From positions 1 through 46,668 of the forward strand of contig JAMPEU010000021.1 in NCBI GenBank assembly GCA_023664865.1: 46,668 nt of DNA. The letters run 5' to 3'. Shown piece by piece: positions 444 to 34,483 of the stretch. The first letter of the stretch is position 1, and every line of letters begins with the position of its first letter. The notes below the pieces were generated by a model. That model saw only the letters and a list, made by a program, of their open reading frames with translations, was not told where the DNA came from and searched no databases. The stretch is from Butyrivibrio sp. Its GTDB lineage: Bacteria; Bacillota; Clostridia; Lachnospirales; Lachnospiraceae. Position numbers and translations under genes: made by a program.

Positions 444-581
444 GTTGTACAATAGATATAAAACATAAGCAGGGCGCTCTGCCGCCGTCGGTACTTAGCG
501 AGGTATTTTCGAGCTTAGTACCGTTACTGGCGGCAATGCAGCGAAAGCGTGCCCTACGTTGTTTTATATCTATTGTACAAC
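444..581 (+). repeat. Palindromic element, family 1, copy 1
   Basis: The element is bounded by a perfect 21-bp inverted repeat (444-464 with 561-581). Inside are the family core GGTACTTAG...CTTAGTACC (490-522), a paired TGCCGCC/GGCGGCA segment, and a GCGAAAGC mini-hairpin with a GAAA loop (541-548). Its arms differ completely from those of the other copies but are exactly complementary to each other. The strand given is the one on which the GNRA loop and tandem G.A pairs appear. It lies between the radical SAM gene and nth, both on the plus strand. Like copy 6 it has the short apical loop around GCGAGGTATTTTCGAGC, and it shares the upstream flank TTCACAGCAT with copy 6. Confidence 0.85.
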
Positions 582-612
582 GTGAACTATCAATAACAAA
601 GGAGAACCCCAT

Positions 613-1245
613 ATGACAAAACGTGTTAAAGCCATCATAGCCCTGCTTGACGAACACTACGGAACCGACTATACCTGTTATCTTACCCACGAGAATGCAT
701 GGCAGCTTTTAATCGCAACCATTTTAAGCGCGCAGTGTACAGATGCAAGGGTGAATATCGTAACCAAAGACCTGTTTAAGAAATACACCAGCATAGAAGA
801 CTTTGCCAATGCTGATTTAAAGGAGTTGGAGCAGGACATACATTCGACCGGATTTTACCATAATAAGGCGAAAAATATCATTGCCTGCTGTAAAGACTTA
901 CGGGACAGGTTCGGTTCAGAGGTTCCGCGCAGCATAGAAGACCTTACTTCACTCGCCGGCGTGGGGCGCAAGACGGCAAACGTCATAAGGGGAAACATTT
1001 ACCATGAGCCGAGCATTGTGGTAGACACCCATGTGAAGCGCATTTCCAAGAAGCTGGGAATAACGAAGGAAGACGATCCCGTAAAGGTTGAAATGGAGCT
1101 TATGAAGGCACTGCCGAAAGACCACTGGATTCTATGGAATATCCAGATTATTACACTTGGCAGGCAGATTTGCAAAGCGCCCACGCCCAAATGTGGAGAA
1201 TGTTTCCTGAAAGAGCATTGTAAGGACTATGGAGAACGGTCATGA
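613..1245 (+). CDS. nth: Endonuclease III (DNA glycosylase/AP lyase)
   Basis: This 210-residue protein has the full endonuclease III layout. It has a helix-hairpin-helix (LAGVGRKTANVI, about residues 114-125) with the catalytic lysine at 120, the catalytic aspartate at 138 in VVDTHV, and a C-terminal 4Fe-4S loop with cysteines at 187, 194, 197 and 203 (C-X6-C-X2-C-X5-C). The numbering matches the E. coli enzyme. It removes oxidised pyrimidines from DNA in base excision repair and cleaves the abasic site. The start has an AAAGGAG site just upstream. The stop overlaps the start of the next gene (ATGA), so the two are probably translationally coupled. Confidence 0.97.
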   Translation: MTKRVKAIIALLDEHYGTDYTCYLTHENAWQLLIATILSAQCTDARVNIVTKDLFKKYTSIEDFANADLKELEQDIHSTGFYHNKAKNIIACCKDLRDRFGSEVPRSIEDLTSLAGVGRKTANVIRGNIYHEPSIVVDTHVKRISKKLGITKEDDPVKVEMELMKALPKDHWILWNIQIITLGRQICKAPTPKCGECFLKEHCKDYGERS

Positions 1246-1943
1246 TAGATTCGTATGTGTGTCTGGACTTAGAGACTACCGGTTTAGAGCCGCATAAAGA
1301 TAAAATTATAGAAATCGGCGCTATCAGGGTTAGGAATGGAAAAATTGAAGATACGTTTGAAACCCTGGTTAATCCGGAGAGGGCATTGGAGGAGCGCATA
1401 ACACAATTGACCGGAATAGTCGATAAGCAGCTTGAAAATGCTCCCGTAATAAACGAAGTCCTTCCGGAACTTCTTAGCTTTATAGGGGACGACGTGCTGC
1501 TCGGACACAGCATATTGTTTGACTATTCTTTTGTAAAAAGGGCGGCGGTCAACAACAGGCTTTCTTTTGAAAAAACGGGAATTGACACATTGAAGCTGGC
1601 AAGGAAATATCTGCCGGATTTGGAAAGCAGAAGCCTTGAGTTTTTGTGCAGGCATTTTGAAATTGAGCATAGCGCACATAGGGCTGTCGCTGATGCAAAA
1701 GCGACGATTGGGCTATATGATAAGCTTGCAGGGCTTTTTTATGAAGGACACGAAGCGGATTTTAAGCCGGTACAGTTAAAATACCGTGCCAAAAGAGAAA
1801 CTGCCATTACGATACCGCAAAAAAACCAGTTATATAAATTACTGGACAAGCATAAACTAAAAGTAGACTATAACGTGGAGAAGCTTACCCGCAGCGAAGC
1901 AAGCCGCTTTATTGCTCAGATTCTTGCAGAATACGGACGATAG
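1242..1943 (+). CDS. DEDDh 3'-5' exonuclease (DnaQ/PolC epsilon type)
   Basis: This 233-residue protein starts within the nth stop codon. Its first 170 residues form a DnaQ-like exonuclease: Exo I is CLDLETTGLEP (acidic residues 9 and 11), Exo II is the GHSILFDYSFVKRA region, and Exo III is HRAVADAKAT. These supply the DEDDh metal-binding set. About 60 residues follow with no domain I recognise, rich in Lys and ending QILAEYGR. Stand-alone exonucleases of this type are often annotated as DNA polymerase III epsilon-like and may act in proofreading or repair, which fits the coupling to nth. The last 35 bases overlap the convergent gene on the other strand. Confidence 0.9.
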   Translation: MIDSYVCLDLETTGLEPHKDKIIEIGAIRVRNGKIEDTFETLVNPERALEERITQLTGIVDKQLENAPVINEVLPELLSFIGDDVLLGHSILFDYSFVKRAAVNNRLSFEKTGIDTLKLARKYLPDLESRSLEFLCRHFEIEHSAHRAVADAKATIGLYDKLAGLFYEGHEADFKPVQLKYRAKRETAITIPQKNQLYKLLDKHKLKVDYNVEKLTRSEASRFIAQILAEYGR

Positions 1944-2517
1944 TATTTTTCATAATTGAATTTACGGATTCGGCAACATGGTAGAGGGGCTTTATTTTTT
2001 CAGGCGTATTTTCTTCCTTGTATATTTGGCACAGAAGCTTGTAGGTACCGCTCACATCGGTTTTGGTGGACACGGCAAATTCAAGAATATCACGCGCTTC
2101 GGAAATACAGCCCTTTTTGTATAAATAGGACGCCCAGCGGTCTAGGGTTCTGGCCAAAATGGTATAGTTCTGGTCGTATCTGCTGAGTCTGTCAATATTT
2201 AAAGTTCCGTACTGCAGCTTTAAATCGGTATTGGTAATGCCGGTAAAATTGACGATTGGGGAGTCGGATAAAGAATTGACAGTCTCTATATATTCGGCAA
2301 CCTGCTCATCGTCCTTAAGAGCCTGCATAGGAAGGCGCTCATAGGGAATCGTAATGTAGTCAAGGTTATCAAGCGGTTTTTTTGATACTTTGCCGGCTCT
2401 GTGCTCTTTACGCCAGAATTCCCGGTTTACGTCAGCGTCAATGCGGTTGTGCTTGGCAATCTCGTAGGAGAGCCATACTATAAAGACGATAAAACTTGCA
2501 AAAAAGGGAAATTTCAT
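1909..2517 (-). CDS. Membrane-anchored protein of unknown function
   Basis: This 202-residue protein has one N-terminal hydrophobic segment (about residues 4-19) and then a soluble, probably helical region. Residues 120-200 (LARTLDRWASYLYKKGCISEARDILEFA and on) have the spacing of TPR-like helical hairpins. I do not recognise a named family. It is transcribed leftward and overlaps the 3' end of the exonuclease gene by 35 bases. It is divergent from the 35-residue membrane peptide gene at 2553, so the two share a short upstream region. The start is preceded by an AAAGGAT sequence on the minus strand. Confidence 0.75.
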   Translation of the reverse strand: MKFPFFASFIVFIVWLSYEIAKHNRIDADVNREFWRKEHRAGKVSKKPLDNLDYITIPYERLPMQALKDDEQVAEYIETVNSLSDSPIVNFTGITNTDLKLQYGTLNIDRLSRYDQNYTILARTLDRWASYLYKKGCISEARDILEFAVSTKTDVSGTYKLLCQIYKEENTPEKIKPLYHVAESVNSIMKNTIVRILQESEQ

Positions 2518-2552
2518 ATATAATATCCTTTCAGTAGGCAGGAGGTTTTACT

Positions 2553-2660
2553 ATGTTTTCATGGCATAATAAAAAATCAAAACAGGTTGTATCGGCGGTC
2601 ATTGCAATTATATTGATTCTTGCAATGGTATTGCCGCTTTTGGTAAGTACGGTTATGTAG
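2553..2660 (+). CDS. Small single-pass membrane protein, 35 residues
   Basis: This short ORF is supported by a strong GGAGG site eight bases before the ATG. It encodes a basic N-terminus (MFSWHNKKSKQ) followed by a single hydrophobic segment (about residues 12-34, VVSAVIAIILILAMVLPLL). The expected topology is a short basic cytoplasmic head and one membrane helix. Codon use and ribosome binding site look genuine, but there is no recognisable domain. It lies between the divergent membrane protein gene and the VanW gene, with about 60 bases before the latter. Its function is unknown. Confidence 0.6.
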   Translation: MFSWHNKKSKQVVSAVIAIILILAMVLPLLVSTVM

Positions 2661-2720
2661 CCAAAGATTAGTTTATCATATTTTTAATAAGTAATCAATG
2701 AATAAGAAAGGCGGAAGGTT

Positions 2721-4241
2721 ATGGGAAGAATTGGAAAATGTCTTGCTGTTATTTCGGCAGTATACGTTGCCATTTTTTCAATGAGCATGACGGCATATGC
2801 CAAAGAAGAAAAAATTGAATCCGGAATTTATGCAAATGACATTGAGCTTTCCGGAATGACCGTGAGTGAGGCGCAAGACGCTATACAGAGCTATGTGGAT
2901 TCGCTTGCAGATGTACAGATTACGCTTCATGCGTTTGATGATAAAAATATTACCACTACGCCGGCGGAAATCGGGATTGAATGGGGGAATCCGGAGATTG
3001 TATATGACGCCGTAGCCATAGGTAAAGACGGAAATATAGTCCAGTGCTATAAGGCGCTTAAAGATTTGGAATATCAAAATAAGGTCTATCGGATAGAATT
3101 TGATTTTGATACGGCGTTGATTAAGGCAATAGTAGAAGAGCAGGGAGCTCTATATAATCAGGAAGCGATTGACGCAACTTTGACGAAAGTGGACGAGGAG
3201 TTTCAGATTACCGAAGGACAGACGGGAATTGCAATCGATACGAATGCTTCTGTGGCAGAAATATATAATTATCTTGTCAGCAAATGGGACGGGACCGACT
3301 GCGATATTGATTTAGCAGTTGAAATAATTGAGCCGCGCGGTACGGCGGAAGAGCTGGCGCAGGTAAAAGATGTGCTGGGGACATTTACAACTTCGTTTAG
3401 CAGCTCCAATGATAACAGGGGTGCGAATGTGGCGAATGCTTGCAGGCTCATTGACGGGCACACTATATATCCGGGCGACGAGTTTTCGGCGTGTGAAGCG
3501 ATATCACCGATTACCACCGACAATGGATACTATATGGCGGCTTCATATCTGAGCGGTCAGGTAGTAGACAGTGTAGGCGGCGGGGTATGCCAAGTGTCAA
3601 CTACTCTATATAACGCGGTTTTAAGGTCAGAGCTCGATGTGACACAGAGAAATAATCACTCTATGACGGTCACATATGTAGATCCATCTGCTGATGCAGC
3701 AATTGCGGAATCGTCGGGTAAGGATTTTAGATTTGTAAACAATACAGGTATGCCTATATATATCGAGGGATATACTACGCCGGACAAGAAGGTTACTTTT
3801 ACAATATATGGAGTAGAGACTAGAGATAGCAACAGGCAGGTTACTTTTGAAAGTAAAGTCTTGGAGCGGACAGAGCCGGATCATGAGATTATAAATACGG
3901 ATGCGTCGAGACCGCTTGGCTATTGTTCGGTTCAATCAGCCCACAACGGCTGCAGGGCTCAGCTATGGAAAGTAGTTACGGTTGACGGCGTGGAGGTTAG
4001 CAGAGAGCAGGTAAACAGCAGTAATTATATAACTTCGCCAAGATGTGCAACTGTGGGAATCGCTACGTCAGATCCGATGGCGTATAATGAAATTATGGCG
4101 GCGGTTGCGACTGGCAGTATCGATCAAGTAAAGGCTACGGTAAACGCATATAAGGCTGCACAAGCTAATGCGCAGGCACAGGCAGCGGCAGCTCAGGCGG
4201 CTGCAGAGGCAGCAGCAGCGGCAGCTATGATGTCGCCATAG
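2721..4241 (+). CDS. VanW family secreted protein with PG-binding-like N-terminus
   Basis: This 506-residue protein begins with a signal peptide (about residues 1-27, ending TAYAKEE). The N-terminal half (about 35-215) resembles the YoaR-like region often found before VanW domains. The VanW domain spans about residues 218-350 and contains TSFSSSNDNRGANVANAC, the glycine-rich GGGVCQVSTTLYNA and the RNNHSMTV motifs. A beta-rich region follows, ending in an Ala/Gln tail (about residues 475-503). VanW proteins occur with glycopeptide resistance and cell-envelope genes, but their activity is not established. A GGCGGAAGG site precedes the start. The next gene follows after 20 bases. Confidence 0.88.
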   Translation: MGRIGKCLAVISAVYVAIFSMSMTAYAKEEKIESGIYANDIELSGMTVSEAQDAIQSYVDSLADVQITLHAFDDKNITTTPAEIGIEWGNPEIVYDAVAIGKDGNIVQCYKALKDLEYQNKVYRIEFDFDTALIKAIVEEQGALYNQEAIDATLTKVDEEFQITEGQTGIAIDTNASVAEIYNYLVSKWDGTDCDIDLAVEIIEPRGTAEELAQVKDVLGTFTTSFSSSNDNRGANVANACRLIDGHTIYPGDEFSACEAISPITTDNGYYMAASYLSGQVVDSVGGGVCQVSTTLYNAVLRSELDVTQRNNHSMTVTYVDPSADAAIAESSGKDFRFVNNTGMPIYIEGYTTPDKKVTFTIYGVETRDSNRQVTFESKVLERTEPDHEIINTDASRPLGYCSVQSAHNGCRAQLWKVVTVDGVEVSREQVNSSNYITSPRCATVGIATSDPMAYNEIMAAVATGSIDQVKATVNAYKAAQANAQAQAAAAQAAAEAAAAAAMMSP

Positions 4242-4261
4242 AAAAGAGTTGACAGGTATTT

Positions 4262-5242
4262 ATGAGAAATGGAAAAATAACGGAGAGTACGCTTAAACGC
4301 TCCGTTTTAAAGCAAATAGGAAAAAGACGTAAAGAAGTTTTATGCGGCGCAGGCGTGGGGACAGACTGTGCCGTTATGTCGTTTGGAGAAGACGAAGAGA
4401 CTGTTATTTCCACTAATCCAATAAGTGCAGATATAGATATTATCGGTATACATGGCGTACATAGGGCGTTAAATAATGTAGCGGCAGCGGGAGCGGAACC
4501 GGTTGGAGTGACGCTTTCATGCCTGTTTCCTGAGAATATCGAAGAAAGTGAACTGCGTGAAATGATGCGGCAGGCGGAAGAAACATGTATAAGTCATGGC
4601 GTTCAGATAATAGGCGGACATACCGAAGTAGTGAATGTCATAAGTAAACCTGTGTTGACTGTGACTGGAATAGGCAAGAGAAAGAAGACGGATAAACCGC
4701 GGAAGATTGAACCGGGGCAGGACATAGTAGTAAGCAAGTGGATAGGGCTGGAAGGCACGCAAATGATTGCCTCAAAATATAGACTTAAGCTGCTTACCAA
4801 ATATCCTGAAAGAATGATAGAAGAGGCGGAGGAGTTTGCGAGGTTTTTCTCTGTTTTACCGGAGGCTGCCGCCGCCCTTAAGTCTGGTGTCTGCGGGCTG
4901 CATGATATTTCACAGGGCGGTATTTTTGGCGCTTTGTGGGAAATGGCGCAGGGAGCAGGCGTCGGACTGGAAATTGATTTAAAGAAACTGCCAATCAGGC
5001 AGGAAACTGTTGAGATTTGCGAGTTTTTTGACTTGAATCCATATGAGCTGTTATCAGGCGGAAGCCTTCTTATGACAACGGACGACGGAGTAGGCTTAAG
5101 TGAAGACCTTAAGGAAATGGGGATACCGGCGGTTATTGTTGGGAAGACTACGGCGGGAAACGACAGGGTTTTGTATAATGAAGGCGAGAAACGTTTCTTA
5201 GAACCGCCCAAAGCAGATCAGATATATAAGTTAAATTTATGA
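4262..5242 (+). CDS. AIR synthase-related protein (PurM/HypE/ThiL-like fold)
   Basis: This 326-residue protein has the two-domain organisation of the PurM superfamily of ATP-dependent enzymes. The metal and phosphate-binding N-terminal motif is GAGVGTDCAVM. The ALNNVAAAGAEPVGVTLS segment and the later IIGGHTEVV segment match the conserved HypE/ThiL/SelD layout. A C-terminal GLHDISQGGIFGALWEMA segment corresponds to the second-domain glycine motif. No hydrogenase, thiamine or selenium genes are adjacent, so the substrate cannot be stated. It follows the VanW gene by 20 bases and is probably cotranscribed with it. A small palindromic repeat follows the stop. Confidence 0.85.
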   Translation: MRNGKITESTLKRSVLKQIGKRRKEVLCGAGVGTDCAVMSFGEDEETVISTNPISADIDIIGIHGVHRALNNVAAAGAEPVGVTLSCLFPENIEESELREMMRQAEETCISHGVQIIGGHTEVVNVISKPVLTVTGIGKRKKTDKPRKIEPGQDIVVSKWIGLEGTQMIASKYRLKLLTKYPERMIEEAEEFARFFSVLPEAAAALKSGVCGLHDISQGGIFGALWEMAQGAGVGLEIDLKKLPIRQETVEICEFFDLNPYELLSGGSLLMTTDDGVGLSEDLKEMGIPAVIVGKTTAGNDRVLYNEGEKRFLEPPKADQIYKLNL

Positions 5243-5249
5243 TGTTACT

Positions 5250-5332
5250 AGTTTAGCCAAAATGAACAAAAACGGAGCTCCAATGCCTGAAAAGCGGTAA
5301 GTCGCTCCTTATTTTGTTCATTTAGCCTAAAC
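5250..5332 (-). repeat. Palindromic element, family 2, copy 1
   Basis: This hairpin has imperfect arms, AGTTTAG then AAATGAACAAAA on one side and their complements on the other. On the minus strand (5290-5318) it carries a 29-base core that differs by one base from the copy at 29430-29458; the most informative part is GGRGCGACTTACCGCTTTT. This copy has about 16 extra bases after the core compared with copy 2. The arms differ between the two copies while remaining paired within each. It lies between the AIR-synthase-like gene and the Lrp gene. Confidence 0.7.
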
Positions 5333-5378
5333 TTTGGCAATTATCTTATTATTTTATAAAAGGAAGGGGATACATAGT

Positions 5379-5861
5379 ATGAGAGAGAAATTATTAGCGA
5401 TAATTGAAAAGAACAGCCGCATAGATATGAAGGAACTGGCGGTTTTGATGGGAGTGGAAGAGATTGACATTGTAAACGAACTTGCAGCAATGGAGAAAGA
5501 AGGAATTATCTGTGGCTACCATACGCTCATTGATTGGGAGAAAACTTCGATTGAAAAGGTGTCGGCGTTAATTGAGGTAAGAGTTACGCCGCAGCGCGGT
5601 CAGGGATTTGACAATATAGCGGAGCGCATTTATAAATATCCGGAGGTCAACTCCGTTTATCTGATTTCCGGCGGTTATGACCTGCTTGTTTCATTAGAGG
5701 GCAAATCATTAAAGGAGATATCCGCATTTGTATCGGATAAACTTTCCACCTTGGATACTGTGCTTAGTACCGCGACTCATTTTATCCTGAAAAAATATAA
5801 GGACCACGGTACAATATTGGCGAAAAAGAGTGAAGACACAAGAGAGAAGGTGACGCCATGA
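5379..5861 (+). CDS. Lrp/AsnC family transcriptional regulator
   Basis: This 160-residue protein has an N-terminal helix-turn-helix (about residues 1-55: LLAIIEKNSRIDMKELAVLMG) and a C-terminal AsnC/RAM effector-binding domain (about 65-145: SALIEVRVTPQRGQGFDNIA, then SVYLISGGYDLLVSLEG). The chosen start is the ATG after AGGAAGGGG; an in-frame codon 45 bases upstream has no ribosome binding site. Its stop overlaps the start of the aminotransferase (ATGA), so it is the first gene of a coupled pair and probably controls amino acid metabolism through it. Such pairs are common in Clostridia. Confidence 0.93.
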   Translation: MREKLLAIIEKNSRIDMKELAVLMGVEEIDIVNELAAMEKEGIICGYHTLIDWEKTSIEKVSALIEVRVTPQRGQGFDNIAERIYKYPEVNSVYLISGGYDLLVSLEGKSLKEISAFVSDKLSTLDTVLSTATHFILKKYKDHGTILAKKSEDTREKVTP

Positions 5862-7030
5862 GAAACCCGTTAGCTGATAAAGTAACCCGTCTTAAACCTT
5901 CCGGCATTAGAAAATTTTTCGATATCGTAAGCGAGATGGACGATGTAATTTCGCTTAGTATCGGAGAGCCGGATTTTGATACGCCATGGCATATCAGGGA
6001 CGAGGGTATATATTCCCTTGAAAAGGGGCGTACTTTCTATACTTCCAATGCGGGACTTAAAGAGCTTAAGGAAGAGATTTGCCATTATATGAAAAGAAAG
6101 CACGGCGCAGAGTATAATGCAAATAGTGAAGTGCTTGTGACGGTAGGCGGTTCTGAGGGAATCGATGTAGCGCTGCGTGCGATGCTTAATCCCGGCGATG
6201 AAGTGCTGATACCGCAGCCGTGCTATGTGTCATATGAGCCATGCGCTATACTGGCGGGCGGTGTTCCGGTTACCATAGAGTTAAAGGCGGAGAATGAATT
6301 TCGCTTAACGCCCCAAGAATTAGAGGAGGCAATTACAGATAAGACCAAAGTTCTGATTCTGGCTTTTCCTAACAATCCTACGGGTGCAATTATGGAAAAG
6401 AAGGATTTGGAAGCTATTGCAGAGGTAATTATTAAGCATGATATATTTGTGATTTCTGATGAAATTTATTCGGAGCTTACATATAAGGGAAAACATGTTT
6501 CCATTGTGGAAATTCCCGGTATGCAGGAAAGAACGATTTTAATCAACGGTTTTTCCAAAGCATATGCAATGACGGGCTGGCGGCTCGGATATTCATGCGG
6601 TCCGGAAGAAATTATTTCGCAGATGATTAAGATACACCAGTTTGCAATTATGTGCGCTCCTACAACCAGCCAGTATGCAGCCGTAGAAGCTTTGAAAAAC
6701 GGCGACGATGACATAGAAGAGATGCGCGAGGCGTATAATCAGAGAAGACGGTATCTGATGCATTCGTTTAAGGAAATGGGGCTGGAATGTTTTGAACCCT
6801 TCGGTGCATTTTATGTTTTCCCATGTATTAAAGAGTTCGGCATGACAAGCGACGAGTTTGCGGTAAAATTTTTACAGGAAGAAAAAGTGGCTGTGGTCCC
6901 GGGTACGGCATTCGGTGACTGCGGCGAAGGTTTCCTTCGTATTTCTTACGCGGCGTCGATGGAGAATATCAAGATCGCGATGCAGCGTCTGGCGGACTTC
7001 ATTGGAAGACTGCGGGCGGCGAAAGCTTAG
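5858..7030 (+). CDS. PLP-dependent class I/II aminotransferase
   Basis: This 390-residue protein is a fold-type I aminotransferase. It shows VGGSEGIDVALRAMLNPGDE (PLP phosphate region), AFPNNPTGAI (conserved Asn-Pro), SDEIYSELTY (Asp-Glu-Ile-Tyr) and GFSKAYAMTGWRLGY, which holds the Schiff-base lysine, plus a C-terminal FLRISYAAS with the carboxylate-binding arginine. Its length is usual for the aspartate/aromatic aminotransferase family. The substrate cannot be fixed from sequence. It overlaps the Lrp regulator by four bases and is followed after 21 bases by trmL, so the three are probably one operon. Confidence 0.94.
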   Translation: MRNPLADKVTRLKPSGIRKFFDIVSEMDDVISLSIGEPDFDTPWHIRDEGIYSLEKGRTFYTSNAGLKELKEEICHYMKRKHGAEYNANSEVLVTVGGSEGIDVALRAMLNPGDEVLIPQPCYVSYEPCAILAGGVPVTIELKAENEFRLTPQELEEAITDKTKVLILAFPNNPTGAIMEKKDLEAIAEVIIKHDIFVISDEIYSELTYKGKHVSIVEIPGMQERTILINGFSKAYAMTGWRLGYSCGPEEIISQMIKIHQFAIMCAPTTSQYAAVEALKNGDDDIEEMREAYNQRRRYLMHSFKEMGLECFEPFGAFYVFPCIKEFGMTSDEFAVKFLQEEKVAVVPGTAFGDCGEGFLRISYAASMENIKIAMQRLADFIGRLRAAKA

Positions 7031-7051
7031 TGACAAGAAAGGGCGGGCAAT

Positions 7052-7555
7052 ATGCACGTTATATTACATCAGCCGGAGATACCGGCGAACACCGGAAATA
7101 TAGGAAGAACGTGCGTAGCGACGGGAACGAGCCTGCACCTGATTGAACCGCTGGGCTTTAGGCTTGATGAAAAATCCGTCAAGCGTTCAGGCATGGACTA
7201 CTGGGAGCGCCTTGATTTGACACGCTACATTAATTATCAGGAATTTCTGGACAGCCACCCAGATGCGACAATATGGATGGCGACAACCAAAGCAAAAAGA
7301 TTATATACGGAAGCCGCTTTTAAACCGGACGATTTTATTATGTTCGGAAAAGAAAGCGGCGGCATTCCGGAAGAAATCCTGGTAAAAAACGAAGAACACT
7401 GCATCAGGATTCCCATGCTCGACGAAATCCGTTCACTGAACCTTTCCAATGCGGTTGCAATAGTGTTGTACGAGGCGCTTAGACAGAATAACTTTAGTAA
7501 CATGCAGACCGCAGGTGAACTCCACCATCTACACTGGAGGACTCAAGACACATAA
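7052..7555 (+). CDS. trmL: tRNA (cytidine/uridine-34-2'-O)-methyltransferase
   Basis: This 167-residue protein is a compact SPOUT methyltransferase. Conserved motifs are MHVILHQPEIPANTGNIGRT (N-terminal Asn and Arg), GMDYWERLD, the SAM-binding knot segments MFGKESGGIPEEI and IRIPMLDEIRSLNLSNAV, and a final ALRQNNF. This matches the TrmL (YibK/CspR) family, which methylates the ribose of the wobble base in tRNA-Leu isoacceptors. The start has a GGGCGGGC-like site. The stop codon touches the outer arm of a family 1 palindrome that separates it from the convergent histidine kinase gene. Confidence 0.95.
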   Translation: MHVILHQPEIPANTGNIGRTCVATGTSLHLIEPLGFRLDEKSVKRSGMDYWERLDLTRYINYQEFLDSHPDATIWMATTKAKRLYTEAAFKPDDFIMFGKESGGIPEEILVKNEEHCIRIPMLDEIRSLNLSNAVAIVLYEALRQNNFSNMQTAGELHHLHWRTQDT

Positions 7556-7569
7556 CAGTACACTTCACG

Positions 7570-7718
7570 AGGCATGGACTCATATGTTTACATTTGAGAC
7601 CCTTGGAAAACGCCGGCACTTAGTGAAAAAGACGCAAAGCAGCTTTTGAACTTAGTACCGCTGCGATTTTCCACGGAGCGAGAGCGTGTCTCAAGTGTAA
7701 ACATATGAGTCCATGCCT
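7570..7718 (+). repeat. Palindromic element, family 1, copy 2
   Basis: The arms of 30 bp (7570-7599 with 7689-7718) match except for one position, which is a G.T pair on this strand. A further CAGTAC/GTACTG pairing at 7556-7561 and 7727-7732 extends the dyad to within a few bases of both neighbouring stop codons. The core GGCACTTAG...CTTAGTACC and the side hairpin with GCGAGAGC (7678-7685) are present. The apical stem is AAAAAGACGC...GCAGCTTTT. It fills the space between two convergent genes, trmL and the histidine kinase. Confidence 0.9.
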
Positions 7719-7735
7719 CCACAACCGTACTGCTG

Positions 7736-9858: not shown

Positions 9859-9915
9859 TTGGGAAATCCTGCCTTTCCTGATTATTTAAATTCGTAACTG
9901 CTAAGCAGCTTATAG

Positions 9916-12291: not shown

Positions 12292-12321
12292 ATTGAGCCT
12301 CATAAATATGGAATATTCCGG

Positions 12322-12505
12322 TAAAGGTTCAGCCCGTGGCAGCAGAGGAGCATATGTTCCCCTTGCGGCACACTCTCGTTCCGTGAAAAAACGCAACGGT
12401 ACTAAGTTCAAAAGCTGAAAAGCAGCTTTTTCACTAAGTGCCGGCGTTTTTCAAGGACCGCGTCGGGGAACATATGCTCCTCTGCTGCCACGGGCTGAAC
12501 CTTTA
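12322..12505 (-). repeat. Palindromic element, family 1, copy 3 (perfect 41-bp arms)
   Basis: The arms 12322-12362 and 12465-12505 form a perfect 41-bp inverted repeat, the longest in the window. The inner part carries the family core. The apical stem is AAAAGCTG/CAGCTTTT (12410-12417 with 12423-12430). The side hairpin loop reads ACGAGAGT on the minus strand (12372-12379), where the others have GCGAGAGC; this swaps a G-C for an A-T pair. It lies between divergent genes, mutS2 and the HtrA-like gene. Its RNA-like strand is the mutS2 strand, so it may lie in the mutS2 leader. Confidence 0.92.
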
Positions 12506-12537
12506 TAAACTGCTATGTAAATATCTTACCATAAACC

Positions 12538-14017: not shown

Positions 14018-14163
14018 ACATGAACTCATATACTTCCACTTGAGGTACGCTCTCGCTCCGTGGAAAATCGCAGCGGTACTAAGTTCAAAAGCCATAAATC
14101 AGGCTTTTTCACTAACTACCGGCGTTTTCCAAGGACCTCAAGTGGAAGTATATGAGTCCATGT
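14018..14163 (-). repeat. Palindromic element, family 1, copy 4
   Basis: The 29-bp arms (14018-14046 with 14135-14163) have one mismatch, which becomes a G.T pair on the minus strand. The apical stem is AAAAGCC/GGCTTTT (14087-14093 with 14102-14108). The side-hairpin GCGAGAGC lies at 14049-14056 on the minus strand. One core pair next to the central GGTAC is mismatched here. It lies between two plus-strand genes, in the antisense orientation to both. ATTCACAG follows its 5' side (14174-14181, minus strand), as in copies 1 and 6. Confidence 0.9.
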
Positions 14164-14245
14164 CGCTAGGCAACTGTGAATAATAATATATATTGTACAA
14201 TTCACGCTATGGAATAATAAAAAATAAAGAAAGGATAGTCAGACT

Positions 14246-25407: not shown

Positions 25408-25430
25408 AGTAAGAGGAAGAAATAATTTAT

Positions 25431-26486: not shown

Positions 26487-26521
26487 CTGTATTATGGCAG
26501 CAAGCGGTGGGAGACATTCAG

Positions 26522-26848: not shown

Positions 26849-26974
26849 CAGTTTATTATATGGTAAAATTATAAATTTTCACATAGGCTTACATATGTTA
26901 TATGGATGTTTATACATACAGTAAAGATGCCTGAGCGCATAAATTTGTGGGCTGAGTAAGAATGGGAGATTATA

Positions 26975-27640: not shown

Positions 27641-27713
27641 TATAAAAGTATAAAGATTTGGGCACAAAGTCAGATTGAAAATCGGCAGACTGTGGAAAGG
27701 CATGGTTGTTAAA

Positions 27714-28445
27714 ATGTTAGAGGTACTTGCAATTCATAAAAAATTTGATAATATAGAAGTGCTGAAAGGCGTTGACGTTAAAGTTGAAAAAGGCGACGTC
27801 ATTGCGATTTTAGGACCGAGCGGCTCAGGGAAAACGACGCTCCTTCGCTGCATAAATTTTCTGGAAAATGCAGAGCAGGGAAAAATGATTTTCGACGGAG
27901 AAGAATATAACTTTGGCAAGGTCAAAAGAAAAGATATCGCAGCAATCAGGAGAAAAACCGCCTTTGTTTTTCAGGACTATAACCTGTTTCTTAATAAGAC
28001 GGCGCTGCAAAACGTAACCGAAGGGCTTATCGTGGCGCGCAAGATGCCGAAGAAGCAGGCGGAGGAAATCGGCAGGAAGATGCTTGATAAGGTGGGACTT
28101 TCCGATAAGTATGATGCATATCCGCATCATTTGTCGGGCGGGCAGCAGCAAAGGGTGGCTATTGCAAGGGCGCTTGCCTCGGAGCCTGAAATTATTTCCT
28201 TCGACGAGCCTACATCGGCTCTAGATCCGGAGCTTACCGGAGAGGTGCTTAATGTAATGCAGCAGCTTGCCGCCGAAGGCATGACGATGCTAGTGGTTAC
28301 TCATGAGATGGAGTTTGCCAGAAATGTGTCCAATAAGGTAATCTTTATGGAAGATGGAATAGTGGTAGAAACAGGAAATTCCAAAGAGTTTTTTGAAAAT
28401 CCGAAGTGCGAGCGGACTAAAGAGTTTCTTCGCATAGAGGCGTAG
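27714..28445 (+). CDS. Amino acid ABC transporter ATP-binding protein
   Basis: This 243-residue ATPase has Walker A (ILGPSGSGKTTLLRCINFLE), the Q loop (AFVFQDYNLFLNKT), the LSGGQQQRVAIARAL signature, Walker B (IISFDEPTSALDPEL) and the switch His (MLVVTHEMEFARN). It matches the GlnQ/HisP family. The start used begins MLEVLAIHKKF; in-frame codons 12 and 39 bases earlier cannot be excluded. It follows the permease gene closely and energises amino acid uptake with it. Confidence 0.93.
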   Translation: MLEVLAIHKKFDNIEVLKGVDVKVEKGDVIAILGPSGSGKTTLLRCINFLENAEQGKMIFDGEEYNFGKVKRKDIAAIRRKTAFVFQDYNLFLNKTALQNVTEGLIVARKMPKKQAEEIGRKMLDKVGLSDKYDAYPHHLSGGQQQRVAIARALASEPEIISFDEPTSALDPELTGEVLNVMQQLAAEGMTMLVVTHEMEFARNVSNKVIFMEDGIVVETGNSKEFFENPKCERTKEFLRIEA

Positions 28446-28550
28446 CACAAATAAAATATAAGTAATTGTGAAACAACTCTGGATATTGAAAGGGAGTTTT
28501 GCAATTATTTAAATAAAAGTAGTCTATAAGCTGAAGGGAGTAGGAAAATT

Positions 28551-29378
28551 ATGAAAAAAAATATTTTGAAACTAATGTGCGTAGCCGCAGTTGCAACTTT
28601 ATCAATAGTATTGACAGGCTGCGGACAAAGCGGCGAGGGCGGCGGTTCTGACAGTCAGGATAAAGATTTGCTCGGACGTATTAAAGATAAGGGCGAAATC
28701 GTAGTCGCTATGGAAGGAACATGGGCGCCGTGGACTTATCATGACGAAGATGATAAGCTGGTGGGCTTTGATACGGAAGTAGCTGAAAAAATTGCGGAAA
28801 AGCTTGGCGTTGAGGCGGTATTTGTCGAGGGTGAATGGGACGGACTGCTTGCCGGGCTGGAAGTCGGAAGATATGATATCATGGTAAACGGCGTGGAAGT
28901 TACGGATGAACGTTCCGAAAAGTATGACTTTACCGAACCGTACGCATATATCCGTACCGCATTGGTCGTAGGCGAAGATAATACGGACATTACATCTTTT
29001 GAAGACTTGGAAGGCAAGACGACGGCAAACAGCATCAACAGCACATATATGTATCTGGCGGAAGAATACGGAGCAACCGTTCTGGGCGTGGATACTCTGG
29101 ATCAGACTATGGATATGGTTTTATCGGGAAGAGCCGATGCGACACTGAACGCCGAGGTTTCTGTTTATGATTATTTTAACGTACACAGCGACGCGGAGCT
29201 CAAAGTAGTAGCGCTGACCGATGAAGCATCATTAGTATCCATTCCCATAAGAAAAGGCGAGGACTCAGATTCTTTACGCGAGGCAATTAATGAAGCAATA
29301 AAAGAACTCAGAGAGTCCGGAGAACTGGCTGAAATCTCTGAGAAATATTTTGGAAGCGATATTACCGGGAACGAATGA
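28551..29378 (+). CDS. Amino acid ABC transporter substrate-binding lipoprotein
   Basis: This 275-residue lipoprotein has a signal with VLTGCGQ (lipidated Cys at about 24) and a periplasmic-binding-protein type II (SBP_bac_3) fold. Conserved features are GTWAPWTYHDEDDKLVGFD, the VAEKIAEKLGVE segment and YDIMVNGVEVTDERSEKYDFT. It captures a polar amino acid outside the cell and delivers it to the permease encoded upstream. AGGGAG precedes the ATG. It ends at a family 2 palindrome. Confidence 0.93.
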   Translation: MKKNILKLMCVAAVATLSIVLTGCGQSGEGGGSDSQDKDLLGRIKDKGEIVVAMEGTWAPWTYHDEDDKLVGFDTEVAEKIAEKLGVEAVFVEGEWDGLLAGLEVGRYDIMVNGVEVTDERSEKYDFTEPYAYIRTALVVGEDNTDITSFEDLEGKTTANSINSTYMYLAEEYGATVLGVDTLDQTMDMVLSGRADATLNAEVSVYDYFNVHSDAELKVVALTDEASLVSIPIRKGEDSDSLREAINEAIKELRESGELAEISEKYFGSDITGNE

Positions 29379-29412
29379 ATATGAAATAGTAAATTAAGAA
29401 CCATTAAAGAAA

Positions 29413-29478
29413 ATTGAAATGAGCAGGAAAACAAAATAAGGGGCGACTTACCGCTTTTGTTTTTCTGCTCATTTCAAT
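29413..29478 (+). repeat. Palindromic element, family 2, copy 2
   Basis: The 24-bp arms (29413-29436 with 29455-29478) match with one G.T pair. The middle has the core GGGGCGACTTACCGCTTTT, nearly identical to the minus-strand core of copy 1 (5290-5318). It lies between two convergent binding-protein genes. The core could form a short GCG/CGC hairpin followed by T runs, so it may also terminate transcription. Confidence 0.8.
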
Positions 29479-29495
29479 CTCAACCGTAATTTAAT

Positions 29496-30263
29496 CTATT
29501 CAGTATCCATCTCCGCGTATTTTATGCCCCAGTCCGCGATAGTGCCGTCTGCAAGCTTGCTTTCTATTACTTCATTAATCATGTTAAGAAGTTCAGTGTC
29601 GCCCTTCTGGACGGCGATAGCGTACTCTTCGGTTTTAAAAGCATTATTATCTTCTACGATTTTAAGACCGGCATTATCTTGAACATACTTTTTCGCTGTT
29701 GCCGAATCGATTATAACTACATCACAGTTTCCGCTCACGAGTTCGGCAACCGCGTCTGCGCCTGTGGGATAGGCTTCATAAGGATATCCCATTTCGTTTA
29801 TGCAGCTTTCGCCAGTATAACCCTGAACGACGCAGATTTTTTTATCTTTTATGTCAACGGCTGTGTATATATCAGAATCTTCTTTTATGATCATGACCTG
29901 AGTTGCGGTATAGTATGGTATGGAGAAATCAACCTGCTCAAGCCTGCTTTCTTCCACGGTTATACCGGCGATTGCCGCATTAACCTGACCATCCTCAAGG
30001 GCATCTAAAAGAATTTCAAAGTCCATGTCTACGATTGCCGCTTTCATACCATTTTCATCGGCAATCTGCTTTGCCAAAGCTATATCGATTCCATCGTAGT
30101 TGTCTATAATTCCGTTTTCCGTTTTAAATTCAAATGGTGGAAATGTCGCACTTGTGCCGAATACTATTTCATTTTCCGTACTCTTGCCGCCGCATGCGGT
30201 AAGTGTGGATATAAGCATAAGCGCTACAAGTATTGATGTTAAAAGTCTGGCTGTTTTTTTCAT
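29496..30263 (-). CDS. Second amino acid-binding lipoprotein (SBP_bac_3 family)
   Basis: This 255-residue lipoprotein has a lipobox LTAC (about Cys24) and the type II binding-protein fold: FGTSATFPPFEFKTENG, then YDGIDIALAKQIADENG and VNAAIAGITVEESRLEQVDFS. It is related to, but clearly diverged from, the plus-strand binding protein at 28551. No permease or ATPase gene is adjacent, so it may use the nearby importer or another. AGGAGG lies eight bases before the start. Confidence 0.93.
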   Translation of the reverse strand: MKKTARLLTSILVALMLISTLTACGGKSTENEIVFGTSATFPPFEFKTENGIIDNYDGIDIALAKQIADENGMKAAIVDMDFEILLDALEDGQVNAAIAGITVEESRLEQVDFSIPYYTATQVMIIKEDSDIYTAVDIKDKKICVVQGYTGESCINEMGYPYEAYPTGADAVAELVSGNCDVVIIDSATAKKYVQDNAGLKIVEDNNAFKTEEYAIAVQKGDTELLNMINEVIESKLADGTIADWGIKYAEMDTE

Positions 30264-30293
30264 GGAAAGCCTCCTAATATAATTGATGTTCTA

Positions 30294-30322
30294 ATTGTAG
30301 CATAAAAATAGTGGATTGAAAA
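30294..30322 (-). promoter_or_regulatory. Predicted promoter of the second binding-protein gene
   Basis: On the minus strand TTTTCA and TACAAT are separated by 17 bases, about 30 bases before the start codon. Confidence 0.45.
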
Positions 30323-30398
30323 GTATAACTATATAATGAAAAACCGTTTCATAAAAAAAGTATGGAAAATAGTTTAGAAAATTTTCACAGATTATTCC

Positions 30399-30427
30399 TT
30401 GCACATTAGAAGTATGAGGAATAAAAT
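30399..30427 (+). promoter_or_regulatory. Predicted promoter of the ABC exporter operon
   Basis: TTGCAC and TAAAAT are separated by 17 bases, about 50 bases before the start codon of the first exporter gene. Confidence 0.55.
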
Positions 30428-30477
30428 GTAAAAAGTATCATTTAAGAGAATAATTTATGGACGAAGAGGGTGAAAAT

Positions 30478-32226
30478 ATGCTAAAGGTATTAGGAGCGCA
30501 GATAAAGGAGTTCAAGAAGGACTCTATTCTTACGCCTGTTTTCATGATTTTAGAAGTTATTATGGAAATGATTATACCTATGCTCATGGCGTCTATCATT
30601 GACGATGGCGTAAATGTAGGAAATCTGAACCATATTTACAAAATAGGCGCCTTGATGGTAGTAACCGCTTTGATTGGTCTGTGGGGCGGCATAATGGGAG
30701 CGAAGTACGGTGCGAGGGCGTCAACGGGCTTTGCAAGAAATCTAAGGAAGGCGATGTTTGAGAATATTCAGACATATTCTTTCGCAAGCATTGATAAGTA
30801 TTCTACATCAAGTTTGATTACCAGACTTACGACGGACGTAACTAATATGCAGAATTCATATCAAATGATTTTAAGAATGGCAATGCGCGCGCCGGCGTCA
30901 ATGATTATCGCTATGGTGATGGCGTTTACAATTAACTCAAGACTTGCTTCGGTATATCTTGTTGCGGTTGTATTTCTTGCTGTATGTATTTCTCTTATCA
31001 TACCGAGGGCGACGAAGTATTTCCGTCAGGTATTTGAGAAATATGATGAGTTGAATGCGAGCGTACAGGAGAACGTATCGGCTATCCGCGTCGTAAAGGC
31101 GTATGTGCGTGAAGACTATGAGACGGATAAATTTAAGAGAGCAAACAGCAATATTTATAATATGTTCTTAAGGGCGGAGAAACTTGTAGTTATTAATAAT
31201 CCGCTGATGCAGGCGACAGTATATACTTGTATTCTGGTGATTTCGTGGCTGGGAGCTAAAATGATTGTTGCCGGTGGACTGACTACCGGTGAAATGATGA
31301 GTATGCTGGCGTATTGCATGAACATACTTATGAATCTTATGATGATATCGATGATTTTCGTAATGCTGACGATGAGTTATGCGAGCGCGAAGCGTATTGC
31401 AGAAGTATTGGAGGAAAAATCAGACTTAACCAATCCCGAAGAGCCTGTATACGAGGTGCCCGATGGAAGCATAACTTTCAAAAATGTAAACTTTACATAT
31501 GGAAAAGCGGGCAAGCCCGTGTTAAAGAATATAAATATTGATATAAAATCAGGTGAGACGATAGGAATTATCGGCGGTACGGGAAGTGCGAAATCGAGCC
31601 TCGTCAATCTAATCAGTCGTCTCTATGATGTTACGTCGGGCGAGATTTTGGTCGGCGGGCTGGACGTTAGAAAGTATGATATGGAGTCGCTTAGAAATCA
31701 GGTGTCCGTGGTTTTGCAGAAGAACGTGCTTTTCAGCGGCACGATTATGGATAACTTGAGATGGGGCGATAAGGACGCTACCGAGGAGGAATGTATAAGG
31801 GCGTGTAAGCTTGCCTGTGCAGATGAGTTTATACAGAATCTTCCGGATAAGTACAACACCCGTATAGAGCAGGGCGGAACCAACGTATCCGGCGGACAAA
31901 AACAGAGGCTTTGTATTGCAAGGGCGTTATTGAAAAAGCCTAAAATACTGATACTCGACGATAGCACAAGTGCGGTTGATACCGCTACAGACGCTAAAAT
32001 CAGAAAGGCGTTTGCGGAAGAGATACCAAACACCACCAAGCTGATAATTGCACAGAGAATTAGCAGCGTGCAGAACGCGGATAGGATAATTGTCATGGAT
32101 AACGGCGAAGTGACGGATTTCGGCACGCATGAAGAACTGTTAAAGAGCAGTCCTATTTACTTAGAAGTTTTTGAATCGCAGACCGGCGGAAACGCTGATT
32201 TCGACCAGAATGGAGGTGACTTGTAA
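30478..32226 (+). CDS. ABC exporter half-transporter with degenerate ATP site
   Basis: This 582-residue protein has six membrane helices (about residues 15-300) and a C-terminal ATPase. Walker A is GGTGSAKSSLVNLI, the signature is NVSGGQKQRLCIARAL, Walker B is ILILDDSTSAVDT and the switch residue is Gln in LIIAQRISS. The Asp in place of the catalytic Glu, and the Gln in place of His, mark the degenerate site of heterodimeric exporters such as BmrCD and TM287/288. The start with GAGGGTGAAAAT upstream was chosen over one 21 bases earlier. It overlaps the partner gene by one base (TAATG). Confidence 0.95.
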   Translation: MLKVLGAQIKEFKKDSILTPVFMILEVIMEMIIPMLMASIIDDGVNVGNLNHIYKIGALMVVTALIGLWGGIMGAKYGARASTGFARNLRKAMFENIQTYSFASIDKYSTSSLITRLTTDVTNMQNSYQMILRMAMRAPASMIIAMVMAFTINSRLASVYLVAVVFLAVCISLIIPRATKYFRQVFEKYDELNASVQENVSAIRVVKAYVREDYETDKFKRANSNIYNMFLRAEKLVVINNPLMQATVYTCILVISWLGAKMIVAGGLTTGEMMSMLAYCMNILMNLMMISMIFVMLTMSYASAKRIAEVLEEKSDLTNPEEPVYEVPDGSITFKNVNFTYGKAGKPVLKNINIDIKSGETIGIIGGTGSAKSSLVNLISRLYDVTSGEILVGGLDVRKYDMESLRNQVSVVLQKNVLFSGTIMDNLRWGDKDATEEECIRACKLACADEFIQNLPDKYNTRIEQGGTNVSGGQKQRLCIARALLKKPKILILDDSTSAVDTATDAKIRKAFAEEIPNTTKLIIAQRISSVQNADRIIVMDNGEVTDFGTHEELLKSSPIYLEVFESQTGGNADFDQNGGDL

Positions 32227-34130
32227 TGCCGGGACCAATGGGAAGAGGACCAAGAGGCGCAAGACCTAAGATTGAAAATCCGGGTAAGCTTTTTAAGCGT
32301 CTGATGGGATATGTATTAAAAAATTATACGCCGCATGTAATTATAGTGGTAATCTGTATTTTTACCAGCGTGCTCTGCAATATACAGGGAACTTTGTTTA
32401 CGCAGACTCTTATTGATAATTATATCGTACCGCTGCTTGGCACAAGCAATCCTGATTTTTCAGGGCTTGCTCATGCGATTATAAGGGTTGCATGTTTCTA
32501 TGCTCTGGGAGCGGCGGCGTCATACCTGAATAGCCGTATAATGATTAATGTCAGTCAGGGAACTATGAGAAATATCAGAAATGATATGTTTAATAAGATG
32601 GAGACGCTTCCGATTAAATACTTCGATACTCATGCGCACGGCGATATTATGTCGTGTTATACCAACGACATTGATACCCTGCGCCAGATGATAAGCCAGA
32701 GTATGCCGCAATGCCTCAATAGTGCGATTACTATCGTTAGCGTATTTATAAGCATGATTGTCTTAAGCGTACCGCTTACGGCAGTTACATTAGTGATGGT
32801 AGCTCTTATGCTGTTCGTTACCAAGAAGGCTACAGGACTTTCCGGCAGATACTTTGTTGCGCAGCAGAAGGCAATCGGCGCAGTAAACGGATATGTAGAA
32901 GAAATGATGGAAGGGCAGAAGGTTGTAAAAGTATTCTGCCATGAAGAAGAAAGTATTAAACGCTTTAATGAGCTGAATGATGAGCTTTTCGACAGCTCTT
33001 ATAACGCGAACCAGTTCGGAAATATGCTCGGTCCAATTAATGCGCAGCTTGGTAATTTAAGTTACGTAGTTTGTGCGATGGTCGGCGGCGCGCTTGCGAT
33101 TGGCAATGTCGGTGGGCTGACGCTCGGCGGACTGGCAAGCTTCCTGACATTTAACAAGAGCTTCAACATGCCGATTAATCAGGTGAGTCAGCAGTTTAAC
33201 TCAATCGTTATGGCTCTTGCCGGAGCCGATAGGGTATTTAGGTTGATTGATGAAACTCCGGAGGCAGACGAAGGTTATGTTACGCTTGTAAATGCAAATG
33301 AAGTAAACGGTGAGCTTGTTGAAGCTGACGGACATACGGGCACGTGGGCGTGGAAGCATTTCCACAAAGACAGCAATACGACCACCTACAAGAAGTTAGA
33401 GGGAATGGTGGAGTTTGACGATGTGGACTTTGGATATAGTGATGACAAAATGGTACTCCACAATATCGTCATGTATGCTAAGCCGGGACAGAAGATTGCG
33501 TTTGTCGGTTCGACGGGAGCGGGCAAGACCACGATAACCAACCTGATTAACCGCTTTTATGATATTCAGGACGGCAAGATACGCTATGATTCCATTAATA
33601 TAAATAAGATTAAAAAAGCAGAACTTAGACGTTCACTCGGAATCGTACTGCAGGATACGCATCTTTTTACGGCGACGGTAATGGAAAATATACGTTACGG
33701 AAAGCTTGACGCTACCGACGAAGAAGTTATTGCAGCCGCTAAACTGGCAAATGCGCATGAGTTTATAGAACGCCTGCCTGTAGGGTACAATACGCTTCTG
33801 ACGGGCGACGGCGCTAACTTAAGTCAGGGACAAAGACAGCTTATCGCCATAGCGAGGGCGGCGATTGCCAACCCGCCGGCGTTAATTCTTGACGAGGCGA
33901 CCAGTTCCATAGATACACGTACCGAGAAGATAGTTCAAGACGGTATGGATAAGCTTATGAAAGGAAGAACCACTTTCGTAATCGCCCACAGACTCTCGAC
34001 GGTAAGGAACAGCGATTGTATTATGGTGCTTGAACACGGCAGGATTATAGAGCGCGGCACGCATGATGAACTTATAGAGGCTAAGGGTAAATATTACCAG
34101 TTGTATACAGGAAATTCTATAGCGGGATAG
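32226..34130 (+). CDS. ABC exporter half-transporter with canonical ATP site
   Basis: This 634-residue protein partners the previous gene product. It has six membrane helices, a roughly 50-residue insert before the ATPase (around GHTGTWAWKHFHKDSNTTT), Walker A (VGSTGAGKTTITNLI), the NLSQGQRQLIAIARA signature, Walker B with catalytic Glu (ALILDEATSSIDT) and switch His (FVIAHRLST). The pair would export drugs, lipids or peptides; the substrate cannot be read from sequence. It is followed by two family 1 palindromes and the convergent pyrG gene. Confidence 0.95.
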   Translation: MPGPMGRGPRGARPKIENPGKLFKRLMGYVLKNYTPHVIIVVICIFTSVLCNIQGTLFTQTLIDNYIVPLLGTSNPDFSGLAHAIIRVACFYALGAAASYLNSRIMINVSQGTMRNIRNDMFNKMETLPIKYFDTHAHGDIMSCYTNDIDTLRQMISQSMPQCLNSAITIVSVFISMIVLSVPLTAVTLVMVALMLFVTKKATGLSGRYFVAQQKAIGAVNGYVEEMMEGQKVVKVFCHEEESIKRFNELNDELFDSSYNANQFGNMLGPINAQLGNLSYVVCAMVGGALAIGNVGGLTLGGLASFLTFNKSFNMPINQVSQQFNSIVMALAGADRVFRLIDETPEADEGYVTLVNANEVNGELVEADGHTGTWAWKHFHKDSNTTTYKKLEGMVEFDDVDFGYSDDKMVLHNIVMYAKPGQKIAFVGSTGAGKTTITNLINRFYDIQDGKIRYDSININKIKKAELRRSLGIVLQDTHLFTATVMENIRYGKLDATDEEVIAAAKLANAHEFIERLPVGYNTLLTGDGANLSQGQRQLIAIARAAIANPPALILDEATSSIDTRTEKIVQDGMDKLMKGRTTFVIAHRLSTVRNSDCIMVLEHGRIIERGTHDELIEAKGKYYQLYTGNSIAG

Positions 34131-34156
34131 AAATATTGCTCTTCACAATATTGAGA

Positions 34157-34304
34157 GGCAAGGACTCATATGCTTACTCTTGAGGCACGCTCTCGCTCCG
34201 TGGAAAATCGCAGCGGTACTAAGCTCAAAATCCAAAAAACAGGATTTTTCACTAAGTACCGGCGTTTTCCAAGGACCTCAAAAGTAAGCATATGAGTCCT
34301 TGCC
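34157..34304 (-). repeat. Palindromic element, family 1, copy 5
   Basis: The 29-bp arms (34157-34185 with 34276-34304) have one mismatch, which reads G.T on the minus strand. The core and the GCGAGAGC loop (34189-34196, minus strand) are present. The apical stem is AAAATCC/GGATTTT (34227-34233 with 34242-34248). It is immediately followed by a small CCATATAT/ATATATGG hairpin (34303-34323). It shares the intergenic space between convergent genes with copy 6, which lies in the opposite orientation. Confidence 0.92.
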
Positions 34305-34344
34305 ATATATCGGTTATATATGGGGTTGCTATTCACAGCATAGA

Positions 34345-34483
34345 GCGGAATGGACTTATATACTTTCTCTTGAGGCCCTTGTAAAACGCCGGTACTTAGC
34401 GAGGTATTTTCGAGCTTAGTACCGCTGCGATTTTACACGGAGCGAGAGCGTGCCTCAAGTGATAGTATATAAGTCCATTCCGC
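34345..34483 (+). repeat. Palindromic element, family 1, copy 6
   Basis: The 32-bp arms (34345-34376 with 34452-34483) have two T.T mismatches. The core GGTACTTAGCGAGG...CGAGCTTAGTACC is the short-loop form also seen in copy 1. GCGAGAGC lies at 34442-34449. The flank TTCACAGCAT (34332-34341) matches the flank of copy 1. It ends 17 bases from the pyrG stop codon. The intergenic region 34131-34500 holds nothing besides copies 5 and 6. Confidence 0.9.

Follow-up and report, generated by a model that had tools for sequence, protein, structure and literature searches.

Six long palindromes that share one core are dispersed over a stretch of 46,668 nucleotides of DNA from Butyrivibrio sp. (contig JAMPEU010000021.1; this whole stretch is called the window here), and the question that they raise is whether they are copies of a structured RNA, of a mobile element, or of both. 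A sequence-only reading of the window had proposed a new structured RNA or mobile element family, and the two halves of this proposal are supported together. The palindromes belong to a real, abundant and apparently undescribed family, in which a shell resembling a miniature inverted-repeat transposable element (MITE), with ends of the ISBst12 type, encloses a conserved core of structured RNA.

Judged from its alignments, the core, about 85-100 nt in length, is under constraint of the RNA type. Alignment A1 comprises 44 of the 48 copies extracted from G000, the source genome of the window (a draft assembly of 3.82 Mb in 180 contigs), after removal of L026 (mis-extracted through a tie in orientation), the truncated L012_691, and two divergent copies, L010_114 and window copy 1. 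RNAalifold predicts 27 pairs in A1, 15 of them changed on both sides; on four of five measures no shuffle out of 500 reached the observed value, and on the fifth 22 did. Wobble cells in A1 number 35 G.U against 2 A.C (binomial p 1e-8, for copies that are not independent, one inherited change being counted repeatedly). The larger and mostly cross-genus alignment A3 contains 54 of 70 covariance-model matches, drawn from the same genus, from further genera of the family and from named records, the remainder being 13 opposite-strand shadows, a duplicate (L080 = L133), a partial match (L082) and a weak second match in L140. Here both-sided changes are found at 28 of 29 pairs, 94.9% of cells are paired vs 76.0% in shuffled alignments, none of 500 shuffles is as high on any of the five measures, and pairing drops sharply when the alignment is slid by one column; wobble cells are 44 G.U vs 14 A.C. 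The covariation suspected from six copies therefore rises in the larger alignment under both the shuffle and the slide controls. A side hairpin is closed by a GNRA tetraloop in 53 of the 54 A3 copies, in six forms (GAGA, GAAA, GCAA, GGAA, GGGA and GCGA), and likewise in 150 of 151 anchorable copies of G000 and G020, a relative about 90% identical to G000. The 3' strand YTTAGTACYGCTRCG is nearly invariant and its partner strand more variable. A core variant with an additional hairpin, AGACCACT...AGTGGTCT, on the 5' strand was observed in L184, L187, L081 and L100. At the gathering score, no known family of Rfam 15 is matched in the window or in 20 other loci, and at E <= 10 only microRNA hairpins appear, far under the gathering score; no description of the element was found in the open-licence literature of PubMed Central (PMC).

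All six palindromes lie where the sequence-only reading had placed them, with a folding energy of -72 to -130 kcal/mol on either strand. The side hairpin, which stands in the 3' arm, gives their orientation. On the forward strand are copy 1 (444..581), a divergent core subtype with the core at 470-554 and the GNRA hairpin at 541-548, copy 2 (7570..7718; core 7596-7692, hairpin 7678-7685) and copy 6 (34345..34483; core 34372-34456, hairpin 34442-34449), which has a short apical loop and is the right member of a divergent pair. On the reverse strand are copy 3 (12321..12506 with both terminal repeats; core 12365-12461, hairpin 12372-12379), copy 4 (14018..14163; core 14042-14139, hairpin 14049-14056) and copy 5 (34157..34304; core 34182-34279, hairpin 34189-34196), the left member of that pair. 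The apical stems named earlier for copies 3, 4 and 5 (GCTG/CAGC, GCC/GGC and TCC/GGA) and the paired differences in the outer arms (CATATG versus TATATA, ACTCAT versus ACTTAT) are found in the sequence. The supposed CACG/CGTG side arm is present, but in each of the six copies it is better described as a hairpin with a GNRA cap (GCGAGAGC, ACGAGAGT or GCGAAAGC), and the GGAAAA/TTTTCC pairing occurs in some copies but is not universal, copy 3 having GAAAAA/TTTTTC, copy 6 GTAAAA/TTTTAC and copy 1 a different stem. The palindromes end as proposed, but some elements reach further, to terminal repeats. This is clearest for copy 3, with GTAAAGGTTCAGCC at 12321-12334 (2 mismatches) and GGCTGAACCTTTAT at 12493-12506 (3 mismatches), and between copies 5 and 6, where GTTGCTATTCACAG lies at 34325..34338 on the forward strand (1 mismatch). 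A terminal-repeat-like end of copy 4, CTGTGAATAATAAT (2 mismatches), lies at 14174..14187 (strand not assigned).

The expectation of many copies per genome is borne out, and the family extends well beyond the window. A covariance model of the core (R1) finds at least 150 core matches in G000, all at E <= 0.001, which excludes chance for the palindromes; 150 is an undercount because L115:100-184 (73 bits), a further G000 core, is not among the matches listed. By blastn, copy 5 has 55 hits in G000, a figure that counts shadows on the opposite strand. In covariance-model searches, the core is present in 34 of the 37 congeneric genomes sampled (the source genome included), in none of 24 genomes from other families of the order (one genome per family), and in 62 of 150 genomes drawn from the family, corresponding to 61 of 149 sampled genera; these surveys used stricter filters, by which weak matches were lost. 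Named records with copies, among the matches listed, are labelled Clostridiales, Lachnospiraceae, Candidatus Fimimorpha, Blautia, Ruminococcus and Muribaculaceae, and since several of them come from one sample series, some bins may be mixed. The bin labelled Muribaculaceae (L078, L080; JAMPHJ) carries copies, and L080 gives the same match as L133 (G016), so that probably either this label is in error or the bin is mixed. No match was obtained in phage and plasmid collections searched with copy 4, or in IMG/VR searched with one exact 20-base pattern, and there is thus no evidence of carriage by phages or plasmids in these collections. A 20-base match in Psychrobacter (L076), in which the covariance model finds no core, was taken as chance.

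The shell has the properties of a MITE, namely terminal inverted repeats, an 8-bp target duplication, short length and presence/absence polymorphism. Beyond the arms lie the terminal repeats GTTACTATTCACAG / GTAACAGTTCAGCC, which cannot be made out on all copies (in window copies 1 and 2, for example, none is found at up to 4 mismatches). G000 has 18 sites with the exact 14-mer GTAACAGTTCAGCC, many of them in inverted pairs with a spacing of about 186 bp. When 1 mismatch is allowed, the counts are 50 in G000 and 22 in G020, vs 0 and 2 for the backward control. The distance between terminal repeats, mostly 171-222 bp and for most elements of this genus about 175-205 bp, is too short for a transposase. 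Among 35 copies with both ends at up to 3 mismatches, the identity of the 8-bp flanks is 0.457 vs 0.305 when partners are shuffled (z 5.7, in a scan of 175 combinations of length and offset, of which several others also exceed z 5). Six of eight distinct G000 repeat pairs of 130-190 bp have 7 or 8 of 8 flank identity. Four of the eight are among the listed cores, and two of these four, at C33:16743 and C103:193666, are surrounded by perfect 8/8 duplications. A gapped search with the terminal-repeat pattern gave no match, and no autonomous copy was recognised at single-ended GTAACAGTTCAGCC sites, as judged by the list of open reading frames (ORFs) only. Three elements of about 186 bp with GTAACAGTTCAGCC ends and 7-8/8 duplications, L204, L210 and L218 (C33:1596-1781, C55:72108-72292 and C99:8685-8870), have a different interior, in which the covariance model finds no core; they are sister MITEs without the RNA.

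Sites with and without the element are found between close relatives. At the window loci, copies 3 and 4 are absent from G020, where copy 2 is reduced to a remnant of its 5' arm; copies 2, 3 and 4 are absent from G010, and copy 1 is present at the orthologous site in both genomes with paired differences. Nineteen of 22 candidate orthologous sites were aligned (L189, L029 and L036_427 were left out); seven of these are empty-looking, four without an insert and three with deletion remnants. Among 12 filled orthologous pairs, the tip is replaced in eight (L005, L003, L019, L154, L105, L156, L028 and L036), together with both inner arms in L005 and L105, and the core is inverted in place in L035/L094. 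The type is kept in L174, in which a stem is changed on both sides, in L006 and in window copy 1. Plain short tips are common in the G020 sample (26 of 54, from tip-type counts that are biased because the G000 copies sampled with them came mostly from the top of the score list) and rarer in G000, where 26 of the 150 listed cores are 84-86 nt. Such block exchange explains part of the apparent covariation of the arms. In the arms, G.U and A.C cells number 102 and 50 within 25 nt of the core and 42 and 71 at 25-45 nt. The claim that pairing and not sequence is maintained needs qualifying for the arms, which are in part exchanged as whole blocks and show no G.U excess in their distal parts, whereas the core shows such an excess.

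The same core occurs within more than one kind of terminal repeat. In G000 itself, L115:40-244 has TAGGTAATTGCGAAACT ends and flanks matching at 12 of 13 positions, and its core at 100-184 is of the kind of window copy 1, judged by eye. Two elements of congeners, L141 and L145, have the same ends and flanks of 10/11 and 12/12, and L148 and L273 have these ends with weaker flanks (7/12 and 8/10), all flank matches of TAGGTAATTGCGAAACT elements being best values over eight lengths. A further end type, GAAATCAATTTTCAGTCAGC, is found in L078, L080 and L096, with duplications that are not clear. The core thus seems to be a module common to several mobile shells, shared by recombination between copies or by mobility of its own. 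An 89-bp element at L095:819-907, with TAGGTAATTGCGAAACT ends and 9/9 flanks, is apparently a core-less form of this second shell.

Of 103 copies in G000 and G020 whose flanks were long enough, crude ORF calls place 102 between genes, and the gene configurations around them are the same as in background gaps. A role of the sense strand in untranslated regions was considered and rejected, there being no orientation bias toward genes. All five G000 pairs closer than 500 bp, among the at least 150 listed cores, are divergent, with 5' ends facing: 34182-34456 in the window, C37:3478/3768, C44:10172/10361, C44:81189/81401 and C114:129204/129365. The members of each differ in tip or arm subtype. Six more divergent pairs are among the matches listed (C169, found by blast, G020:C33, G020:C44, L078, L272 and G124:C84), the sole exception among these matches being a tandem pair in L140. 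Elsewhere in the window, positions 2721-4241 encode a protein with weak VanW-type similarity, far under the curated cut-off, which is likely an ordinary VanW-domain protein.

Taken as a whole, these elements are very probably a non-autonomous MITE-like family with an RNA core. For the main group, mobility would be supplied in trans by IS66-type (ISBst12-like) transposases, acting on the GTTAC.../GTAAC... ends and duplicating 8 bp, the helper being absent from G000 or unassembled there. The long palindromes may provoke breaks or slippage, and repair from other copies would swap the tip and inner arms as paired blocks, or invert or delete the core; block repair of this kind would keep the arms complementary while their sequence drifts. 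The core RNA would be read from the strand whose 3' arm bears the GNRA hairpin and be selected as RNA. It might serve the element rather than each neighbouring gene, a guess that we favour, perhaps as a self-acting RNA affecting the processing or persistence of the element's own transcript. Finally, the core would pass between mobile shells with different ends.

The candidate helpers were sought among IS66-type transposases. The domain PF03050 has matches in 17 of the 41 congeneric genomes searched, and the candidate helper elements inspected are 2.2-2.4 kb in length with one large frame of about 410-650 aa, besides which smaller frames may be present. Repeats of the form GTTACAATTCA or GTTACTATTCA delimit two divergent loci, L253 (G004, 647-aa frame) and L254 (G022, 580-aa frame). 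Together with ten likewise divergent loci picked from family-wide IS66 matches they make twelve, of which six (L253, L254, L315, L317, L319 and L321) have a GTTAC-type motif inverted at both ends, three (L316, L320 and L322) have it at one end, and the remaining three at neither. L317 is flanked on both sides by the 8-bp duplication GCCGGAAT. The core-bearing L257 of G115 agrees with the end of the transposase element L315 of that genome at 21 of 24 positions on one side and at 18 of 24 on the other. L255, in which the IS66 match is a 206-aa frame with one GTTACTTTTCAC motif and an adjoining 545-aa frame is of the AAA / PD-(D/E)XK type, was not counted among the twelve. Among the other loci of the genus, L235 has GTAAGCG ends, and the element of L247 (= L253) is found at the DNA level only in G004 among 10 genomes.

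Several observations weigh against parts of this explanation. There is no PF03050 match in G000 or in its close relative G020, both of which are draft assemblies. Among 20 IS66 loci of the genus (L233-L252), only L247 had repeat-like ends at both sides, and no 8-bp duplication is found at L315, L253 or L254. None of 20 IS66-type loci searched contains the core, which is therefore linked to the insertion sequences by its ends only, and presence of the core is not associated with that of IS66 in 150 genomes (19 with both; odds ratio 0.58, p 0.13, all IS66 types pooled). Most copies are without a recognisable 8-bp duplication, only 5 of 35 reaching 7/8 flank identity; a length of 9 bp at one offset scores above 8 bp in the flank scan (z 6.9), the flanks of the core-bearing copies at C97:28111 and C99:13817 match at 4/8 and 1/8, and the cleanest empty site, L127/L091, shows 4/8 flank identity only. 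The orientation of the copies relative to transcripts in 71 co-directional settings is 27 sense and 44 antisense (p 0.057), so that the core does not look like a sense-strand element of untranslated regions. Break and repair are deduced from their outcomes, and plain gene conversion by RecA would look identical. The apparent swaps, which come from draft and metagenome assemblies, may also be assembly errors in a metagenome bin.

A first rival explanation involves no RNA function at all. In an ordinary MITE the fold would be a by-product of the inverted repeats, and pairing would be kept only by DNA-level copying between arms and between copies. The terminal repeats and target duplications, the block swaps and inversion, the distal arms lacking a G.U bias (42 G.U vs 71 A.C) and the lack of orientation bias to genes all agree with this explanation. 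It becomes very improbable in view of the GNRA loop kept in 53 of 54 copies through six different forms, the pointwise compensation in the core across genera, the G.U excess of the core (35 to 2 in A1, 44 to 14 in A3), the nearly invariant YTTAGTACYGCTRCG strand, and the fact that cores outlast arms and ends. If an RNA function is accepted, it could be a service to the host, a cis-regulatory or mRNA-processing RNA having been spread by transposition, for example as an RNase III or stability element. Such a service is quite unlikely where copies show no sense-strand bias (27 vs 44), stand in the same gene configurations as background gaps, are patchily present (61 of 149 genera) and are lost between close relatives, even though 102 of 103 scored copies are intergenic by simple ORF calls, the hairpins are stable, and Correia elements and RNase III offer a precedent (PMC10969869).

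The core could instead be a parasite of hairpin tips that enters palindromic MITEs of unrelated kinds at the apex, or takes the place of the apex, without help from their transposases. One core within two kinds of terminal repeat in a single genome, arms that are unrelated between genera and yet palindromic, and replacement of the tip in place at 8 of 12 sites with inversion of the core at one would suit such a parasite. No insertion of a core into a core-less palindrome was caught, however, ordinary recombination between copies yields the same swaps, and no dedicated enzyme was found, the search having been confined to IS66; invasion of this kind is accordingly rated as distinctly improbable. 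A more far-reaching and still unlikely extension would make the structured RNA of this one bacterial family a mobile module by itself. It would ride on palindromic transposable elements with different transposases, pass from one to another, and replace or invert itself at given genomic positions; the unit of long-term selection would then be the RNA rather than the ends of the transposons.

A non-autonomous MITE-like family with an RNA core, the explanation preferred here, bears on how such repeats are viewed. MITEs are usually regarded as remnants of transposons; the present one bears an RNA fold that is conserved across 61 of 149 sampled genera, while its arms and ends turn over. At least 150 copies in one genome, together with the conserved fold, make it possible to test whether a mobile element is kept by an RNA function, and the orthologous palindromes are a natural record of swap, inversion and deletion. 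A covarying RNA family without a match in Rfam 15 is added as well.

To our knowledge, MITEs of the Correia, ERIC or BOX type have not been described as having a core that covaries across genera and bears a GNRA side hairpin, or one core shared by two types of terminal repeat. Correia elements (CREE/NEMIS), ERIC, BOX and other prokaryotic MITEs are also short elements with terminal repeats and transcripts that form stable hairpins (PMC10969869, PMC2649163), and some such transcripts are processed by RNase III (PMC10969869). REP and REPIN elements with RAYT transposases are likewise dispersed palindromic extragenic repeats that occur in inverted pairs (PMC3116915, PMC3733652); REPs are 20-40 bp in length (PMC3733652), whereas the present elements are 140-200 bp, some with target duplications. 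The bcr1-bcr18 repeats of the Bacillus cereus group are described as intergenic, high-copy and lineage-restricted, with bcr1-bcr3 MITE-like, part of them transcribed, and a conserved secondary structure in bcr10 and bcr18 (PMC3446304, PMC6542083). The present elements, being intergenic, high-copy, MITE-like, lineage-restricted and of similar size, resemble them to this extent. The sequence-only reading had named bcr1 as the nearest analogue, which is right as to an intergenic, high-copy, MITE-like repeat, but the mobility of bcr repeats is tied to a TTTAT motif; the present elements have 8-bp duplications, ISBst12-type ends and a core that recurs across many genera, and stand outside the B. 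cereus group. With variable 8-bp duplications and hosts that are gut Clostridia by their labels, they are set apart from bcr1 by its description. In the type of terminal repeat and the 8-bp duplication they resemble the ISBst12 group of the IS66 family, for example ISDge4, whose ends are reported as GTGACTACTCAGCA / GTAACTGCTCAGCA with an 8-bp repeat (PMC12898284). The candidate partner elements carry one large IS66-type frame, beside which smaller ones may lie; the present repeats encode no transposase. As a mobile element, the family is a further case of a known kind; what is new is that a covarying core is so widespread and is carried by different shells.

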